A DNA stretch of 39,256 nucleotides, from positions 1-39,256 of the forward strand of contig JALQUE010000425.1 of assembly GCA_023260815.1 (NCBI GenBank), given 5' to 3'. The notes beneath the pieces were generated by a model, which was not told where the DNA came from, made no database searches, and saw only the letters and a list, made by a program, of their open reading frames with translations. Each line of letters begins with the position of its first letter. Positions within the stretch are counted from its first letter, which is position 1. This document shows, one piece after another, positions 109 through 20,113 of this stretch. A program made the translations under genes and the position numbers. This DNA is from Roseovarius sp. (lineage in GTDB: Bacteria; Pseudomonadota; Alphaproteobacteria; Rhodobacterales; Rhodobacteraceae).

Positions 109-262
109 CTTTTCTTGCGCCTTCGTATGCATGGTCAAGCCGTCCGGTATCGCGCCGTCGCGGTGCCCCGCGCCATCTTTTCCAACCAATTTTAATCGTT
201 AAAGGCCCGGTAACACCTCAGGCGCTATTCCTGTCATTGGGTGAGTTGAAAAGGTGGTGAAG

Positions 263-1135
263 ATGGCTGCGTCTGGCGATAACGCCGCGCCGGTCATCAT
301 CAAACGGAAAAAAGTCATTGCTGGCGGCGGGCACCATGGCGGTGCCTGGAAAGTCGCTTACGCCGATTTCGTAACGGCGATGATGGCGTTTTTTCTTTTG
401 ATGTGGCTGTTGAACGCGACGACGGAAAAGCAACGAAAAGGCATTGCTGATTATTTCAGCCCGACGGTGCCGATCAACCGCATCTCGGGTGGTGGGGACG
501 GCAATTTTGGCGGTGACAGCGTATTCTCTGAAATGACGCTGCCCCAGAACGGTAACGGCGCCACCAATCAACGCCCCTCCGATGCAGAGAAATCTCGTGG
601 CGAAACGGGTGTGTCCGACGATGGTGCGCCTGCCGACGGGCCTGGGGCGGCGCAGCAAGCGGCAGAAAATGCCGGCCTCGAAAAGGTTCAGGATCTTCTC
701 AAGGGTCGGTCGGGCGAAAGTGCCGTCTCGCCGGAAATCCTGCGCCATGTCCTGACGCGCGTGACCGATGAGGGCCTCGTGATTGAACTTTTCGATCTCC
801 AGGATGCGAGACTGTTTCACCCTGAAAGCGCTTCATCGACACCGTTACTCCGGCAATTGGCGCTTTTGGTCGGGGCCGCCGCGCAGCTTGTCGAAAACGG
901 CATCGCGGTCGAGGGGCACACCCGCGCAAGGCCAGTTGTTCTACAGGATAACCCGGTCTGGAACCTGTCGGTGGCGCGTGCGGATGCCATGCGCACCCTG
1001 ATGCAGGACACCGGCATCGACGCCGATCGCATGACGCGTGTGACGGGCCATGCTGATCGTGAACCGGTCCTGTCCGACAGGATGGCCATACGCAACAACC
1101 GGCTGGAGGTGATTCTGCTTCGATCTGACAAGTAA
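263..1135 (+). CDS. motB: flagellar motor protein MotB (OmpA-like C-terminus); GTG at 254 is an alternative start
   Basis: N-terminal GGAWKVAYADFVTAMMAFFLLMWLLNA plug/TM motif with catalytic-type Asp; C-terminal GHTRARP/NLSVARADAMRTLM/RVTGHADREP OmpA-like motifs. Confidence 0.93.
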   Translation: MAASGDNAAPVIIKRKKVIAGGGHHGGAWKVAYADFVTAMMAFFLLMWLLNATTEKQRKGIADYFSPTVPINRISGGGDGNFGGDSVFSEMTLPQNGNGATNQRPSDAEKSRGETGVSDDGAPADGPGAAQQAAENAGLEKVQDLLKGRSGESAVSPEILRHVLTRVTDEGLVIELFDLQDARLFHPESASSTPLLRQLALLVGAAAQLVENGIAVEGHTRARPVVLQDNPVWNLSVARADAMRTLMQDTGIDADRMTRVTGHADREPVLSDRMAIRNNRLEVILLRSDK

Positions 1136-9600: not shown

Positions 9601-9615
9601 TTAACAATCGGTTAG
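9601..9615. promoter_or_regulatory. putative CtrA-like site (TTAA-N7-TTAG) in the fliF/fliL divergent region
   Basis: TTAACAATCGGTTAG; one mismatch from TTAA-N7-TTAA. Confidence 0.45.
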
Positions 9616-9662: not shown

Positions 9663-10160
9663 ATGGCCATCACCGAAGACCCCGTTTCTCAAGACACCGG
9701 CAAACGATCGAAACTGCCGCTTATCCTTGGCTGCGTCCTGGCCTTGTCCGGGGCGGGGGCGGGCTTTTATGCGGTGCAATCGGGCCTTTTGCTTGGGGGG
9801 TCTGCCCCGGACGCGGATCAAGCCGTCATACCTGACGCCGCGCATGTCACCGCGATGCCCGATGTGGCTTTCGTGCCCATAGATCCCATCGTTATTTCGC
9901 TAAGCAACGCAGGCGGCCCCGGCCATCTGCGGTTTCGTGCGCAGCTCGAGGTGCCAAGCACCTACGCCGCTGAGGTCGGTCGCCTGATGCCGCGCGTGGT
10001 CGATGTGCTCAACAGCTATCTGCGGGCCATCCAGCTGGAGGATGTTCGCGAACCATCGGCCCTGGTCCGAATGCGGGCGCAAATGCTGCGCCGTGTGCAG
10101 ATCGTCACCGGGGGTGGGCGTGTAAACGACCTCCTGATCATGGAATTCGTACTGAACTGA
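9663..10160 (+). CDS. fliL: flagellar basal body-associated protein FliL
   Basis: Single N-terminal TM then VFVPIDPIVISLSNAGGPGHLRFRAQLEV...LMPRVVDVLNSYLRAI; typical FliL. Confidence 0.9.
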   Translation: MAITEDPVSQDTGKRSKLPLILGCVLALSGAGAGFYAVQSGLLLGGSAPDADQAVIPDAAHVTAMPDVAFVPIDPIVISLSNAGGPGHLRFRAQLEVPSTYAAEVGRLMPRVVDVLNSYLRAIQLEDVREPSALVRMRAQMLRRVQIVTGGGRVNDLLIMEFVLN

Positions 10161-10167
10161 GGACAAA

Positions 10168-10575
10168 ATGCAGACAATTGCTGATATTCTTCTTGTCGCG
10201 GGCGCTTTGGGGGCGGGGTTTTATTGCTACATCCTGGCCCGGCGTCTGGCGCGGCTCAACGATCTGGAATCCGGCGTCGGTGCCGCTGTCGCGGTTCTGT
10301 CTGCGCAGGTCGATGATCTGACCAAAGCGCTGGCTGCGGCGCAAACCACCGCCGATACGTCAACGCATTCTCTCGATGGGCTGACAGACAGGGCCGAAAG
10401 TGCGGCCAAGCGATTGGAATTGCTGGTCGCCTCCATGCATGACCTGCCCGCGCATCCCCCCGCCGCCGAACCGCGCAAACCTGTGCAGAATGGGCAGAAT
10501 GTGCAGGATGTGCAGGATGGACAGGATGCGCCCGTGTTCCGCCGTCATCGCGATGATCTGGACGCGGCCTCGTGA
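10168..10575 (+). CDS. N-terminal TM plus coiled-coil motility-locus protein of unknown function (possibly DUF6468-like)
   Basis: TIADILLVAGALGAGFYCYILARRLARLNDLESGVGAAVAVLSAQVDDLTKAL; between fliL and motE-like gene. Confidence 0.7.
   Translation: MQTIADILLVAGALGAGFYCYILARRLARLNDLESGVGAAVAVLSAQVDDLTKALAAAQTTADTSTHSLDGLTDRAESAAKRLELLVASMHDLPAHPPAAEPRKPVQNGQNVQDVQDGQDAPVFRRHRDDLDAAS
10483..10527 (+). repeat. 5 x 9-bp tandem repeat inside CDS (GTGCAGGAT-like), encoding VQN GQN VQD VQD GQD
   Basis: gtgcagaat gggcagaat gtgcaggat gtgcaggat ggacaggat. Confidence 0.95.
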
Positions 10576-11186
10576 TGTCCGGCACATCGCGCAAACTCGC
10601 CCGGCGCCGGTCGCGCACACGCGGCACGCTCGTTGTCATCGCCATCTTGCTGGTCTCGTCGGCGGTGATCCGTCTGGGGTCCGGCGCGGGGTCTGCGTTC
10701 GCGCTTGCGCCGGACGCCAAACAGATCTCGCCCTCGGACACCGCGTCAGCCTCCCAGTCGCAGGGATGCGAGCCAGACCCTGACCTGAAACAGATTTTGC
10801 AGGCTTTTGACGCCCGCGAATCGCGTATCGAGCAGGCCGAGGCGGCGCTGCGGGACCGGATGCAGGCGTTGACCATCGCGGATCGCGAAGTCAGCAGCAA
10901 ACTGGCGGAACTCACCGATGCCGAAGCACGATTGCGGGACACCATCGCGATCGCCGAATCGGCTGCAGACACCGATATCGATCGCCTGACGCAGGTCTAC
11001 GAAGCCATGAAACCCAAGCAGGCCGCCGCTCTGTTCGAGCAGATGGACCCGAATTTTGCCGCGGGCTTCCTTGGCCGCATGCGCCCCGAGGCTGCGGCGG
11101 GCATCATGGCCAGCCTTGCGCCCGACGTGGCCCATATGTTCAGCGTGGTGATCGCCGGCCGCAATGCGGGGGCGCCCAAAGAATGA
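10572..11186 (+). CDS. MotE-like protein (coiled coil with MgtE-N-like C-terminus)
   Basis: LTQVYEAMKPKQAAALFEQMDPNFAAGFLGRMRPEAAAGIMASLAPDVAHMFSVVIAGRN. Confidence 0.8.
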   Translation: MMSGTSRKLARRRSRTRGTLVVIAILLVSSAVIRLGSGAGSAFALAPDAKQISPSDTASASQSQGCEPDPDLKQILQAFDARESRIEQAEAALRDRMQALTIADREVSSKLAELTDAEARLRDTIAIAESAADTDIDRLTQVYEAMKPKQAAALFEQMDPNFAAGFLGRMRPEAAAGIMASLAPDVAHMFSVVIAGRNAGAPKE

Positions 11187-11257
11187 TCTCCGCGCTTCAG
11201 CCATTTCTTAACCTGCGCATGCGACCCTGACCGCCTGTCTATTAGGGGAAGCTTTGG

Positions 11258-12127
11258 ATGCTTGGAATCGTTGGTATTGTCACCATTTTCGTCATGGTGT
11301 TCGGCGGCTACATGGCTGCGGGCGGCAAGTTCGGTATCATCCTCAAGGCGCTGCCTTTCGAAATGATGATGATCCTTGGTGCCGCGATCGGTGCGTTTCT
11401 CATCAGCAATGACATGTCGGCTGTGAAACACACGATCAAGGACATCGGCAAGGTCTTCAAGGGGCCGAAATGGAAGCCCGCTGATTATCGGGATCTACTC
11501 TGTCTGCTGTTCGAACTGATCCGCCTCGCCCGGCAGAATCCCGTTGCGATCGAGGAACATATCGAAGCACCGGACAGCTCTTCGATTTTTGGGAAATACC
11601 CCAAGATTCTCGCAGATCACGAGGCGGTTGCCCTGATCAGCGACACGTTGCGCTCTGCTTCGATGAACTACGATGACCCTCATCAGGTCGAGGAGGTTCT
11701 TGAAAAAAGGATGGAAGCCAACCAGCATCACGCCCTCCATTCCAGCCACGCGCTTCAGACGATGGCGGACGGCCTCCCGGCCCTTGGGATCGTCGCGGCC
11801 GTTCTTGGTGTGATCAAGACCATGGCATCGATCGATCAGCCACCGGAAATCCTCGGCAAGATGATCGGCGGCGCCCTTGTCGGGACATTTCTGGGGGTAT
11901 TTCTGGCCTATGGTTTCGTCGGGCCTTTCGCCGGCAAGGTCAAGGCCGTGGTCGAGGAAGACGCCCATTTTTACCAACTCATCCGCGAGGTGTTGGTGGC
12001 AAACCTCCACAACCATGCCACCAACATCTGCATCGAAGTTGGCCGCCAGAACACCCCGCACCACTGCCGGCCCAGTTTCTCTGATCTCGAAGAGGCCCTG
12101 AAATCCGTCAAGCAGGATGCGGCATGA
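11258..12127 (+). CDS. motA: flagellar motor stator protein MotA
   Basis: MLGIVGIVTIFVMVFGGYMAAGGKFGIILKALPFEMMMILGAAIGAFLI; LGIVAAVLGVIKTMASIDQPPEILGKMIGGALVGTFLGVFLAYGFVGPF. Confidence 0.97.
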   Translation: MLGIVGIVTIFVMVFGGYMAAGGKFGIILKALPFEMMMILGAAIGAFLISNDMSAVKHTIKDIGKVFKGPKWKPADYRDLLCLLFELIRLARQNPVAIEEHIEAPDSSSIFGKYPKILADHEAVALISDTLRSASMNYDDPHQVEEVLEKRMEANQHHALHSSHALQTMADGLPALGIVAAVLGVIKTMASIDQPPEILGKMIGGALVGTFLGVFLAYGFVGPFAGKVKAVVEEDAHFYQLIREVLVANLHNHATNICIEVGRQNTPHHCRPSFSDLEEALKSVKQDAA

Positions 12128-14349
12128 TGCTCAGGGGCTTGTGCGCGATCCTCATTCTTCTCCCGGCGGCCGCCTTGTCCGATCCGATCACCGTCCGCTC
12201 AGGTGAGCATGACAGCTTCACCCGTCTGACGATACCGTTGCCGCAACGTGTCCCTTGGCGCGTCACACGCCGGAACCGTGTCGTCGACCTCTCTTTGCAG
12301 GGACTGACCGCCACTCTTGATACAAGTGCCGTCTTCAGCCGCATCTCCGGCACCCGCCTCGCCGGCATCACAGCGTCGGAGACCGGGCTGCGACTGGACC
12401 TTGCCTGCGAGTGCGAGGTGTCGGGATTCTGGCATGGCGGTACTTTGTTGGTGGTGGATATTCAGGATGCGGTCACCCAAACCGCAGTTCGTCCTGATAC
12501 CGCGTCTGTTTCGTACGATCCGTACACACCTCCCGCCTCCGCCGCAGCCGCGTTGACGATCCGGAAAATGCCCGTAAACCCTGCGCAACCACCTCGCGAA
12601 ATCGCCGCCACACCAGAAGGTTTCGAGGCCGAGGCGCTTGACGAAATGCGCGACACCCTCCTCGTTCAGTTGGGTCGGGCAGCCTCTCAAGGCCTTCTGG
12701 AACCACGAAAATCCGGGATCATCGAAACCAGCAACCCCCCCCCAGCCCCGCTTGAAACACCATCCCAAACGCCCGTTTCGCAAGCGGCCATTCACAACAT
12801 CAACCTGCGTGCCGAAACAAGCATGGACCGGGAATTCGTCAAGCTGATCGAAGAAAACCTGCCCGGTTTACCGACGCCGAACTGTATCCCCGACCACCAG
12901 CTAAACATCCGCGAATGGGCGGATGACAGGCCGATCTGGTCTCAAATTGGGCCATTGCGCGCCAATTTGACCAGTGAGACGGATAAAATAAACCCGAATG
13001 CAGCTCTCGATCTGGCGCGCGTCTATATTCATTTCGGCTTTGGCGCCGAAGCGATTGCCGTCCTGAATACCAGCCAGATCACGTCGCCCGACGCCCTCCT
13101 ATTGCGTGATCTCGCAACGATACTGGACCGTGGCTCCGTACCGGCGCCCAATCTTCTGTCCGATCAGATCAGCTGTCCTGGCGCGGCGGCTCTTTGGTCG
13201 GCACTCGCCGTTCCAAACCTGCCAATGGATCAGCCCATCGACAAGGACGCGATCCTTCTGGCTTTTGCGTCAATGCCATATCACTTGCGCGTCTACCTGG
13301 GTTCAGGGCTGGCACTGCGCTTCACCCGCGCCGAAGATCAGGACTCGGCACAGAAAATCCTGTCGATGATCGAACGCGGGCCACTTCCTGTACCGCCACC
13401 CGCTCGGCTTGCGCGTGCCGAGCTGAATCTTGCGTCGGGCTTGGACGAGGCCGCTCAGGCAATATTGGCGGAAGTCGCCGAAAGCAATTCGGAACCCTCT
13501 GCGGATGCGCTGATAAGAATTGTCGAAACGCATATCGATACGGGGCAAACCCTTTCGTTTGAGACAGCGCAGCTTGTAACCGCCTATGCCACGGAAAATC
13601 GTGATAGCCCTTTGGCCGGTGATCTGGCTTGGGCACAGGTTGCGGCCTTGTCGGCGTCTCATGCTTTTGATGAGGCCTTCGAAAATTTGCAGACGCTGGA
13701 AGCGCTCCTGCCCCCCGAACGGCCAGCAATACGGTCGATATTGGCAAGCCAGCTGACAGAACATGGGGATGATGTCGTGTTTCTGCGCCATGTTCTGGCG
13801 GGTGACCTTGGCCCGCCCTCGACGCTGTCGGCGACAAGTGCCAATGCACTGGCCGACAGGTTGTTGTCGCTTGGGTTTCCCGATCCTGCCCGCAGCCTGA
13901 TCGCGGCCCCCGCTTCGGATGCCGCCGCCGAGCGGGAAAGACAGCTTTTGCGCGCCCGCGCAGCGCTTGCCTTGGGCCGTCCGCGCCAAGCGGAGGTCGA
14001 TCTGCTCAACCGCACAGACAAGGCTGCAAACAGCCTTCGCGCCCGGGCGCGCAGCATGGTTGGTGAACACGGAGCAGCCAGTGAGTATTACGCGTCAGCT
14101 GATCAGCAGGCCGAGGCTTTGACCGAAGCGTGGATGGCCGAAAACTGGCCAGATCTTAGGGAGTCCGCCAATGCTGAAGTGTCTGATCTGGCCAACCTCA
14201 TGACGATGGAAGGCACGACACCGGACCTTGCGATTGATCAGGGCGTCCTCGCACGGAACCGAGCACTGCTTGAGAATAGCGACAGGATGCGCCGCACGGT
14301 CTCTGCTCTTCTCGACGCCAAACAGCCCCCGGCTTTGACCGAAAACTGA
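12124..14349 (+). CDS. secreted protein with AMIN-like N-terminal beta region and TPR-like helical repeats, unknown function
   Basis: Signal peptide MMLRGLCAILILLPAAALS; beta-rich SFTRLTIPLPQRVPWRVTRRNRVVDLSLQG; helical repeats e.g. DLARVYIHFGFGAEAIAVLNT; start overlaps motA stop. Confidence 0.8.
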   Translation: MMLRGLCAILILLPAAALSDPITVRSGEHDSFTRLTIPLPQRVPWRVTRRNRVVDLSLQGLTATLDTSAVFSRISGTRLAGITASETGLRLDLACECEVSGFWHGGTLLVVDIQDAVTQTAVRPDTASVSYDPYTPPASAAAALTIRKMPVNPAQPPREIAATPEGFEAEALDEMRDTLLVQLGRAASQGLLEPRKSGIIETSNPPPAPLETPSQTPVSQAAIHNINLRAETSMDREFVKLIEENLPGLPTPNCIPDHQLNIREWADDRPIWSQIGPLRANLTSETDKINPNAALDLARVYIHFGFGAEAIAVLNTSQITSPDALLLRDLATILDRGSVPAPNLLSDQISCPGAAALWSALAVPNLPMDQPIDKDAILLAFASMPYHLRVYLGSGLALRFTRAEDQDSAQKILSMIERGPLPVPPPARLARAELNLASGLDEAAQAILAEVAESNSEPSADALIRIVETHIDTGQTLSFETAQLVTAYATENRDSPLAGDLAWAQVAALSASHAFDEAFENLQTLEALLPPERPAIRSILASQLTEHGDDVVFLRHVLAGDLGPPSTLSATSANALADRLLSLGFPDPARSLIAAPASDAAAERERQLLRARAALALGRPRQAEVDLLNRTDKAANSLRARARSMVGEHGAASEYYASADQQAEALTEAWMAENWPDLRESANAEVSDLANLMTMEGTTPDLAIDQGVLARNRALLENSDRMRRTVSALLDAKQPPALTEN

Positions 14350-14361
14350 ATGGAAACCTCC

Positions 14362-14399
14362 CCAGCTTACCAAATGTAAAGGTTGCAGACCTAAGCTGG
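14362..14399 (+). other. inverted repeat CCAGCTTA...TAAGCTGG with inner AGGT-TGCAG-ACCT stem
   Basis: 8-bp perfect outer stem 14362-14369/14392-14399 between TPR and SLT genes. Confidence 0.6.
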
Positions 14400-14480
14400 A
14401 CCCAATGGCGTAGAACGCGCTTGTTCGAGGATGAAACCCTTGCCCCATGGAATGACCCGATGTGATGCGACCCGGTGTTT

Positions 14481-14498
14481 GCGGCCTTGCAAGGCCGC
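14481..14498. promoter_or_regulatory. perfect 18-bp palindrome just upstream of the SLT start
   Basis: GCGGCCTTGCAAGGCCGC is its own reverse complement; 7 nt before ATG at 14506. Confidence 0.6.
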
Positions 14499-14505
14499 TG
14501 ACTTA

Positions 14506-15243
14506 ATGAACCCCACCCACCGAAGGCTTAGCTATTTGGCAGCCGCAATTCTTTTTGCACTGTCTCTTGCGGCTCCTTCGACGGCGATCGCATCGACACC
14601 GCAAATATGCGACCAGGCCGCTTATCGCGCATCACAAGAAAGCGGCGTTCCGCTTGAGGTGCTGCGCACGATCACGCGCACCGAAACCGGCCGCGCCAAA
14701 AACGGTCGTCTGGAGCCATGGCCCTGGACCGTCAATATGGAGGGAAAGGGCCGCTGGTTCGCCACCGAAGACGAAGCGCGCGCATATGTCTTTCAGCACT
14801 TCAAGCGCGGTGCACGAAGTTTTGATGTCGGCTGTTTTCAGATCAACTATCGGTGGCACGGACAGGCCTTCAGTTCGATTGATCAGATGTTCGATCCGCT
14901 TATGAATGCCCGTTACGCCGCACAATTTCTCAAATCTCTCTATGGTGAAACCGGGAACTGGTCGAAAGCGGCGGGCAAATATCACTCCCGAACTCCCAGG
15001 TTTTCCGAAAGGTATCGTGCGCGGTTCGACAAGATCAGATCATCATTGTCGGATCAGCCCGTGTCAGCCGAGTCTGCAACCCTGCCTGCCTCTCACGGTG
15101 AGACAGATACAGCCGAAAAGACCCAAAATCGTTTCCCCCTTCTACAAAGTGGCGACATGCGTCGCTCACCGGGGTCTCTGGTCCCGCTCGACACTGGCAG
15201 AGCCGTGGCGCTGATCGGTCCTTCCAGGCAGGCGATGCAATGA
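14506..15243 (+). CDS. lytic transglycosylase SLT-domain protein (SltF-like flagellar muramidase)
   Basis: Signal peptide; ASQESGVPLEVLRTITRTETGR...ARSFDVGCFQINYRWHG...MFDPLMNARYAAQFLKSLYGETGNWSKAAGKYHSRTP. Confidence 0.88.
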   Translation: MNPTHRRLSYLAAAILFALSLAAPSTAIASTPQICDQAAYRASQESGVPLEVLRTITRTETGRAKNGRLEPWPWTVNMEGKGRWFATEDEARAYVFQHFKRGARSFDVGCFQINYRWHGQAFSSIDQMFDPLMNARYAAQFLKSLYGETGNWSKAAGKYHSRTPRFSERYRARFDKIRSSLSDQPVSAESATLPASHGETDTAEKTQNRFPLLQSGDMRRSPGSLVPLDTGRAVALIGPSRQAMQ

Positions 15244-19179: not shown

Positions 19180-19619
19180 CGGACCGCTCCCTGTATGATC
19201 TGGCCGCCTTGACCGATGCCGTCTTCCGCAACGAGCAGGCCCGATTGCAGCAAATTCTTGCCCAAGAGGCGCAATTGCGCAGCGCGCTTGCCGACCTGAA
19301 CGCGCAGGCCCGCACCAATGCCAGCCTGTCTTCGCAAGGCGTGCGAGAGATCGGTGCCGATATGCTCTGGGACGGTTGGGTCCGGCGGATGCGCGCCGAC
19401 CTTCAGGGGCGCCTGGCCATGGTTCTCGTGCGAAAAAGCGCGATGATCGCTGCGATGCGCAATGCGCATGGACGCAAGATCGCGGCTGAAAGCCTTCTTG
19501 AGCAGTGGACGAAAACAACCGCCAGCGCGCATCGAAAAACCCTGAATGAGCAAGAACAGAGCCTGATATTATGCCAGCAGACCTTGCTGCGACAGGGGCG
19601 ACCGGATCAGATGTCCTGA
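19176..19619 (+). CDS. FliJ-like coiled-coil flagellar protein (tentative)
   Basis: 148-aa-class charged helical protein, start overlaps flhB stop. Confidence 0.5.
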   Translation: MTDRSLYDLAALTDAVFRNEQARLQQILAQEAQLRSALADLNAQARTNASLSSQGVREIGADMLWDGWVRRMRADLQGRLAMVLVRKSAMIAAMRNAHGRKIAAESLLEQWTKTTASAHRKTLNEQEQSLILCQQTLLRQGRPDQMS

Positions 19620-20113
19620 CGGCCGATATCGGTGATGAGTATGCCTTTGGCCGCCATCCCGATAATGGATTGTGCGACTTCGGTCAGCGACATGCGCAGA
19701 ACATCCATGTTGTTGGCGCTGGTGAACTCACCGGCAAAGCCGCCCATATTCGCATGATCGAACAAGACCTGTAGAAACGCGTCCCGCAGTTTCGGCTCGG
19801 TTTCATAGACAAGAGAGGACTGGCCCACCGCGACTTCGACGCTCAACGCCAGAACGACCAGCGCGTCGATTCTTTCAGCGCTGACCACCGGCACCACGAA
19901 CTGATTGTTCAACTTCACATATTCCGCAGCTGCCGGATCGGGCTCGACCGGCTCATTTTGGGCGGTCGCGACGGTTTCTGTTTCCGACCCTGTGTCACCA
20001 CAAGGATTGATCTCGACAGTTTCCAGGGGATCGGGCCGCATGATGTATCCGGCCCCCACACCGCCGGAAATGCCGATCGCCGCAAGAACGACAGGAAGCA
20101 ACACTTTCATCAT
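19607..20113 (-). CDS. second FliL-like flagellar basal body protein
   Basis: N-term TM; EYVKLNNQFVVPVVSAERIDALVVLALSVEVAVGQSSLVYETEPKLRDAFLQVLFDHANMGGF. Confidence 0.8.
   Translation of the reverse strand: MMKVLLPVVLAAIGISGGVGAGYIMRPDPLETVEINPCGDTGSETETVATAQNEPVEPDPAAAEYVKLNNQFVVPVVSAERIDALVVLALSVEVAVGQSSLVYETEPKLRDAFLQVLFDHANMGGFAGEFTSANNMDVLRMSLTEVAQSIIGMAAKGILITDIGRQDI

Follow-up and report, generated by a model that had tools for sequence, protein, structure and literature searches.

The closest described counterparts of the locus considered here are those of Cereibacter sphaeroides, in which MotK and MotE were characterized in 2024 (PMC10954123). Their operon is known to comprise fliL2, pflI, motE, motA2 and motK (PMC10954123), followed by sltF (PMC6180460), and one CtrA site drives both fliL2p and fliF2p (PMC6180460). 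MotK and MotE reside in the periplasm, interact with one another and with MotB2, and sit at the flagellated pole; they are required for rotation and dispensable for filament formation, and motK mutants are paralysed (PMC10954123). MotE has been viewed in a review as an E-ring component (PMC13023049), and the E-ring and spoke view of MotE and MotK has already been published (PMC13023049, PMC11870540). In Phaeobacter, the uncharacterized genes CP2-CP4 occupy these slots (PMC12363192).

Gene content and control of the locus

The window, a 39,256-nucleotide stretch of a Roseovarius sp. contig (JALQUE010000425.1), carries a flagellar gene cluster that is nearly complete, motB marking its left end (Table 1). 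It very probably contains a CtrA-controlled fliL-pflI-motE-motA-motK-sltF operon of the native Rhodobacterales flagellum, with the 741-aa protein as MotK acting through a stator-scaffold mechanism. This locus and its explanation in outline are already known, and the window contributes one further orthologue. The five plus-strand open reading frames of the region 10168-15243 were confirmed at the positions originally given, and the order after fliL is a 135-aa pflI, motE, motA, the 741-aa motK and a lytic transglycosylase gene, then flhA, fliR and flhB. The tight packing of these same-strand genes was likewise confirmed, with the motA stop overlapping the start codon of the 741-aa gene in an ATGA at 12124-12127; the same or an equivalent overlap is seen in most homologues. 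The motE frame spans 10572-11186 (204 aa), the likelier start being the ATG at 10575, and the transglycosylase frame (14431-15243) gains a proper signal peptide if the ATG at 14506 is the start. Judged by its TIGR03818 match (4e-111), the MotA assignment is certain.

Table 1. Features of the candidate MotK-MotE operon and its surroundings in the window
Feature	Position	Strand	Evidence
motB, partner stator subunit, same cluster	254..1135	+	MotB_plug 1.2e-19, OmpA 1.9e-7
CtrA-type box TTAACAATCGGTTAG	9601..9615	+	between divergent fliF and fliL
fliL, operon's first gene	9663..10160	+	PF03748 1.6e-12
pflI / CP2, 135 aa	10168..10575	+	one N-terminal TM segment and conserved coiled coil (probable DUF6468)
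motE / CP3	10575..11186	+	N-terminal hydrophobic helix, long coiled coil, MgtE_N (ARM-like) C-domain, 5.7e-6
motA, stator proton-channel subunit, 289 aa	11258..12127	+	TIGR03818 4.3e-111
motK / CP4, predicted secreted scaffold protein, 741 aa	12124..14349	+	match to C. sphaeroides MotK
MotK AMIN-like beta domain, residues 25-114	12196..12465	+	eight strands, pLDDT about 95
MotK TPR-type helical superhelix, residues 257-732	12892..14319	+	AlphaFold model, PDB fold search
sltF, Sec-secreted flagellar lytic transglycosylase, optional	14506..15243	+	PF01464 1.4e-5, above cut-off

The flanking genes also have counterparts in C. sphaeroides. The products of pflI and sltF are 56% and 43% identical, respectively, to those of the C. 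sphaeroides genes in the same slots. The window PflI matches DUF6468 weakly and below cut-off (0.003), while 17/19 family members match it. The box between fliF and fliL reads TTAA-N7-TTAG; the strict form TTAA-N7-TTAA is absent from the window, and boxes with one mismatch number four against 1.5 expected, which is not clearly above chance alone. The box is convincing only because it is conserved across relatives: a CtrA-like box lies in 75/75 related fliF|fliL intergenic regions, compared with 1.1% of background windows, and the C. sphaeroides locus (L174, see below) carries a letter-identical one.

Two further genes of the same families were seen. A second FliL-like gene lies on the minus strand at 19610-20113, shortly past the operon's flhB end (PF03748, 0.00096, below cut-off). 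A second FlhA-family gene, 37% identical, lies elsewhere in the same assembly (G000:C118:6796-8799) and points either to contamination or to another flagellar or type III secretion system.

Identity and predicted structure of the 741-aa protein

A reference locus for C. sphaeroides was sought in 397 genomes via the published fliL2 primer, which matches genome G083 without mismatch. The locus there, L174, has the same gene order as the window, and its MotE (185 aa) and MotK (652 aa) agree exactly in length with the published proteins; its identity as the reference is based on these lengths together with the gene order and the mismatch-free primer site. The 741-aa protein is 29% identical to the 652-aa MotK of L174 over 608 aa (E 1.8e-53), and its family profile matches the latter at E 9.3e-119. 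By direct sequence orthology, the 741-aa protein is thus assigned as MotK. The original prediction of a periplasmic, stator-associated factor partnered with MotE is borne out by this assignment.

Structure prediction agrees with the signal peptide, beta-rich N-terminus and helical repeats that had been proposed from the sequence. The N-terminus is hydrophobic and signal-peptide-like in the window protein and its relatives, as judged by hydropathy and inspection by eye, and the AlphaFold model (mean pLDDT 86.8) comprises an N-terminal helix corresponding to the signal peptide, the eight-strand domain, a disordered linker that contains a single helix, and a superhelix of about 30 TPR-type helices. 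Of the likenesses suspected in the original prediction, profile and structure searches upheld that to AMIN in family members and in the model, and failed to find that to FlgT. PF24837 (AMIN-like) matches 7/17 family members, at best with 3.3e-4, and TPR_19 matches 3/17; the window protein alone yields neither the AMIN-like domain nor any other significant Pfam match, and NCBIfam is likewise uninformative. FlgT was rejected, as the profile matches include no FlgT model, whether for the window protein (E up to 1) or for the 17 family members (E up to 0.1). A MotF-like identity was also discarded: MotF is a 24-kDa single-pass membrane protein (PMC7277832) with its transmembrane segment at 54-74, from which the 741-aa protein, with only an N-terminal hydrophobic segment, differs in size and topology.

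In a fold search of the whole PDB, the best match of the MotK model is 9hmf_K, from a Campylobacter flagellar periplasmic scaffold (E 5.4e-6), with other TPR proteins next at about 1e-5. The TM-score of this match is low (0.16), as expected since the superhelix is flexible. Chain K of 9hmf is taken to be PflA, its 773 residues fitting the mature protein; by published description, PflA consists of a beta-sandwich followed by a linker and a TPR superhelix (PMC12222027). A profile search of PDB sequences with the MotK family returned chance matches only, and neither an experimental MotK structure nor a peptidoglycan-binding assay is reported in the MotK literature cited here. Four cysteines (C95, C97, C254 and C351 in the window protein) are invariant in 66/66 sequences and kept in C. 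sphaeroides MotK, a pattern that would be compatible with disulphides or a metal site; the passages on MotK consulted here make no mention of them.

Conservation and co-occurrence

The block fliF | fliL-orf135-motE-motA-741-(slt)-flhA-fliR-flhB is kept in 16/16 genus relatives where the contig allows, and recurs in 80 named Rhodobacterales loci, giving a synteny total of about 95 loci. Its recurrence in relatives excludes chance as an explanation of the gene order. The original prediction had named a lack of synteny with motA as a point against itself; motA lies directly upstream of the large gene in 79/80 of the named loci, the contig of the 80th being truncated. The lytic transglycosylase gene is present in 11/16 genus-relative loci and 44/80 Rhodobacterales loci (about 71 of the 80 reach flhA) and is an optional member, which corrects the five-gene module first proposed. 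This flagellar enzyme is kept in only about two thirds of related clusters, yet Phaeobacter is immotile without it.

MotK is the fastest-changing gene of the block, with a median identity to the window of 33-36%, compared with 85-87% for MotA, 74-76% for FlhA and 49-57% for MotE. Owing to this divergence, a single-sequence search of genome contigs with the 741-aa protein gave zero matches, while a profile search succeeded. The MotK profile is found in 174/249 Rhodobacteraceae genomes and cluster-type FlhA, defined as a match at E<1e-200, in 173/249. By tallies made by hand, both are present in 171 of these genomes and neither in 73, so that 244/249 are concordant and five discordant (G047, G071, G260, G099 and G220). 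In the sample of relatives, the large protein occurs in 16/16 other genomes with cluster-type FlhA and in none without it, the window's own genome being excluded.

MotE and its cysteine

The 204-aa protein carries MgtE_N, the domain that marks MotE, FlgY and FlbB, above cut-off, and the domain is matched in 47/47 family sequences. It follows a coiled coil with an N-terminal signal or transmembrane segment, the arrangement of MotE and the E-ring proteins FlgY and FlbB, and the protein is 46% identical to C. sphaeroides MotE. The AlphaFold model (pLDDT 85) shows one long helix (70-145) and a four-helix C-domain, and among PDB entries it matches the FliF-YlxF model 9a67 best; YlxF has been named as a FlgY homologue (PMC13023049).

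Cys66 of the window MotE occupies the linker region, as does Cys49 (mature Cys20) in C. sphaeroides MotE. Loss of that cysteine destabilizes MotE in C. sphaeroides and Sinorhizobium meliloti. The disulphide-dimer cysteine is present in only 23/47 Rhodobacterales MotE sequences; the MotE family is therefore not defined by it, and in many species MotE dimers must owe their stability to something else.

Proposed mechanism and alternative explanations

The gene order, homology, co-occurrence and predicted folds described above are what this analysis shows for the MotK-MotE operon; the ring and spoke geometry, by likeness to FlgY and PflA, and the binding to peptidoglycan are proposed. MotE dimers would assemble into an E-ring lying against the MS-ring on its periplasmic side. 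MotK, exported via Sec, would extend its AMIN-like domain and disordered linker toward peptidoglycan or a neighbouring scaffold protein, and its TPR superhelix would be the spoke, bound both to MotE and to MotB on the periplasmic side. MotE and MotK jointly may gather MotA/MotB stators around the rotor or activate them, and a cell lacking them would be expected to assemble a flagellum that does not rotate. SltF, if present, would open the cell wall for the rod. The locus may thereby illustrate the construction of a periplasmic stator scaffold in alphaproteobacterial motors, similar to that made by the E-ring and PflA spoke in Campylobacter.

Two other accounts of the module are each improbable. 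One holds that MotE is mainly a chaperone and MotK the sole structural partner, as proposed for the S. meliloti MotE-MotC pair, in which MotC is degraded without MotE (described in PMC10954123, PMC13023049); the original prediction likewise cast MotE as chaperone of the large protein. The dependence runs in the opposite direction in C. sphaeroides: MotE disappears when MotK is missing, MotK remains stable in cells that lack MotE, and neither MotK nor the stators are needed for MotE-sfGFP to arrive at the flagellated pole (PMC10954123). The match of the MotE model to the E-ring homologue YlxF in complex with FliF also speaks against a chaperone.

The second account, of similarly low probability, has the 741-aa protein serving assembly, of the outer rings or of export, rather than torque generation. 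It draws on the Phaeobacter CP4 mutant, which has fewer extracellular flagellar proteins than the wild type; however, this mutant still yielded hook and filament proteins (PMC12363192), and the C. sphaeroides motK mutant is paralysed with filaments and similar hook protein levels, the localization of MotK itself depending on MotA2 and MotB2 (PMC10954123). Phenotypes reported for the neighbouring genes disagree, in that Phaeobacter CP2 and CP3 (motE slot) mutants lack flagella (PMC12363192) while loss of motE in C. sphaeroides leaves cells with flagella that are paralysed (PMC10954123), and this disagreement counts against the stator-scaffold explanation.

That the 741-aa protein is an unrelated cytoplasmic or general TPR factor, present here by coincidence, is rejected as having a negligible chance of being correct: TPR proteins are common and the window protein lacks a significant Pfam match of its own, but its signal-peptide-like N-terminus, strict synteny, co-occurrence with the cluster and direct orthology to MotK all contradict it.

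Distribution beyond the Rhodobacterales

CP1-4 have been stated to occur only in this cluster type and to be absent outside the order (PMC12363192). The MotE profile, however, matches 78/143 genomes sampled across the class, and the DUF6468 family is present in Caulobacter. Twenty motE loci from other alphaproteobacterial families (L144-L163) were collected; one of them, L144, shows the gene order of Rhodobacterales and is possibly itself a member of this order. When the MotK profile was run over the 905 open reading frames of these loci, a large same-strand frame downstream of motE matched in 17/20 (2.4e-28 to 7.5e-5), with the best other frame at 0.035. The AMIN part alone finds most of these large proteins, which often have two tandem AMIN-like domains compared with one in Rhodobacterales, and profile-profile comparison aligns them with MotK over 405 TPR columns (99.7% probability, E 7.7e-27). 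On these profile matches, MotK-like proteins near motE in other families appear to contradict the published restriction to Rhodobacterales.

MotK is probably the Rhodobacterales form of a class-wide alphaproteobacterial MotE partner, with an E-ring and AMIN-TPR spoke that would be ancestral and later shortened in Rhodobacterales. Such an extension was partly foreseen, for Caulobacter and by structure alone (PMC10954123, PMC13023049). With respect to MotC, no model for it is among the NCBIfam matches and the fetched loci yielded no identifiable MotC sequence; in one alphaproteobacterium, a secreted TPR protein encoded close to the motE match is recognized by the MotK TPR profile (2.2e-9) but could not be named MotC. 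The comparative additions are a module wider than published, a known MotE disulphide that is unusable in half of the species sampled, and four never-varying MotK cysteines. The module itself is real and well conserved.

Comparison with known systems

The nearest system is MotK of C. sphaeroides Fla2 (RSWS8N_12065), with which the Roseovarius locus shares gene order, the motK ATG over the motA stop, the signal peptide, the AMIN-like domain and TPR-type helices, the four conserved cysteines and the CtrA box before fliL. The Roseovarius protein differs in length (741 vs 652 aa) and is only 29% identical, and its function is predicted. Phaeobacter inhibens has the common slots CP2, CP3, motA, CP4, sltF and flhA after fliL; CP2-CP4 reportedly occur throughout this cluster type and are indispensable for motility, and the authors call the proteins uncharacterized and order-specific (PMC12363192). 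Caulobacter CC_2058/CC_2059 and the large motE-neighbour proteins share the AMIN-like N-terminus and TPR region near motE, CC_2058 by description only; the large neighbours differ in being 850-1355 aa long, often with two AMIN-like domains and usually not beside motA. S. meliloti MotC is, by description, also a periplasmic TPR protein that partners MotE and is required for rotation, but reportedly lacks an AMIN domain. PflA and FlgY of Campylobacter share with MotK and MotE the beta-sandwich, flexible linker and TPR superhelix, the MgtE_N partner and the scaffolding of stators, whereas PflA differs in having no sequence similarity in the PDB profile search and a low TM-score.
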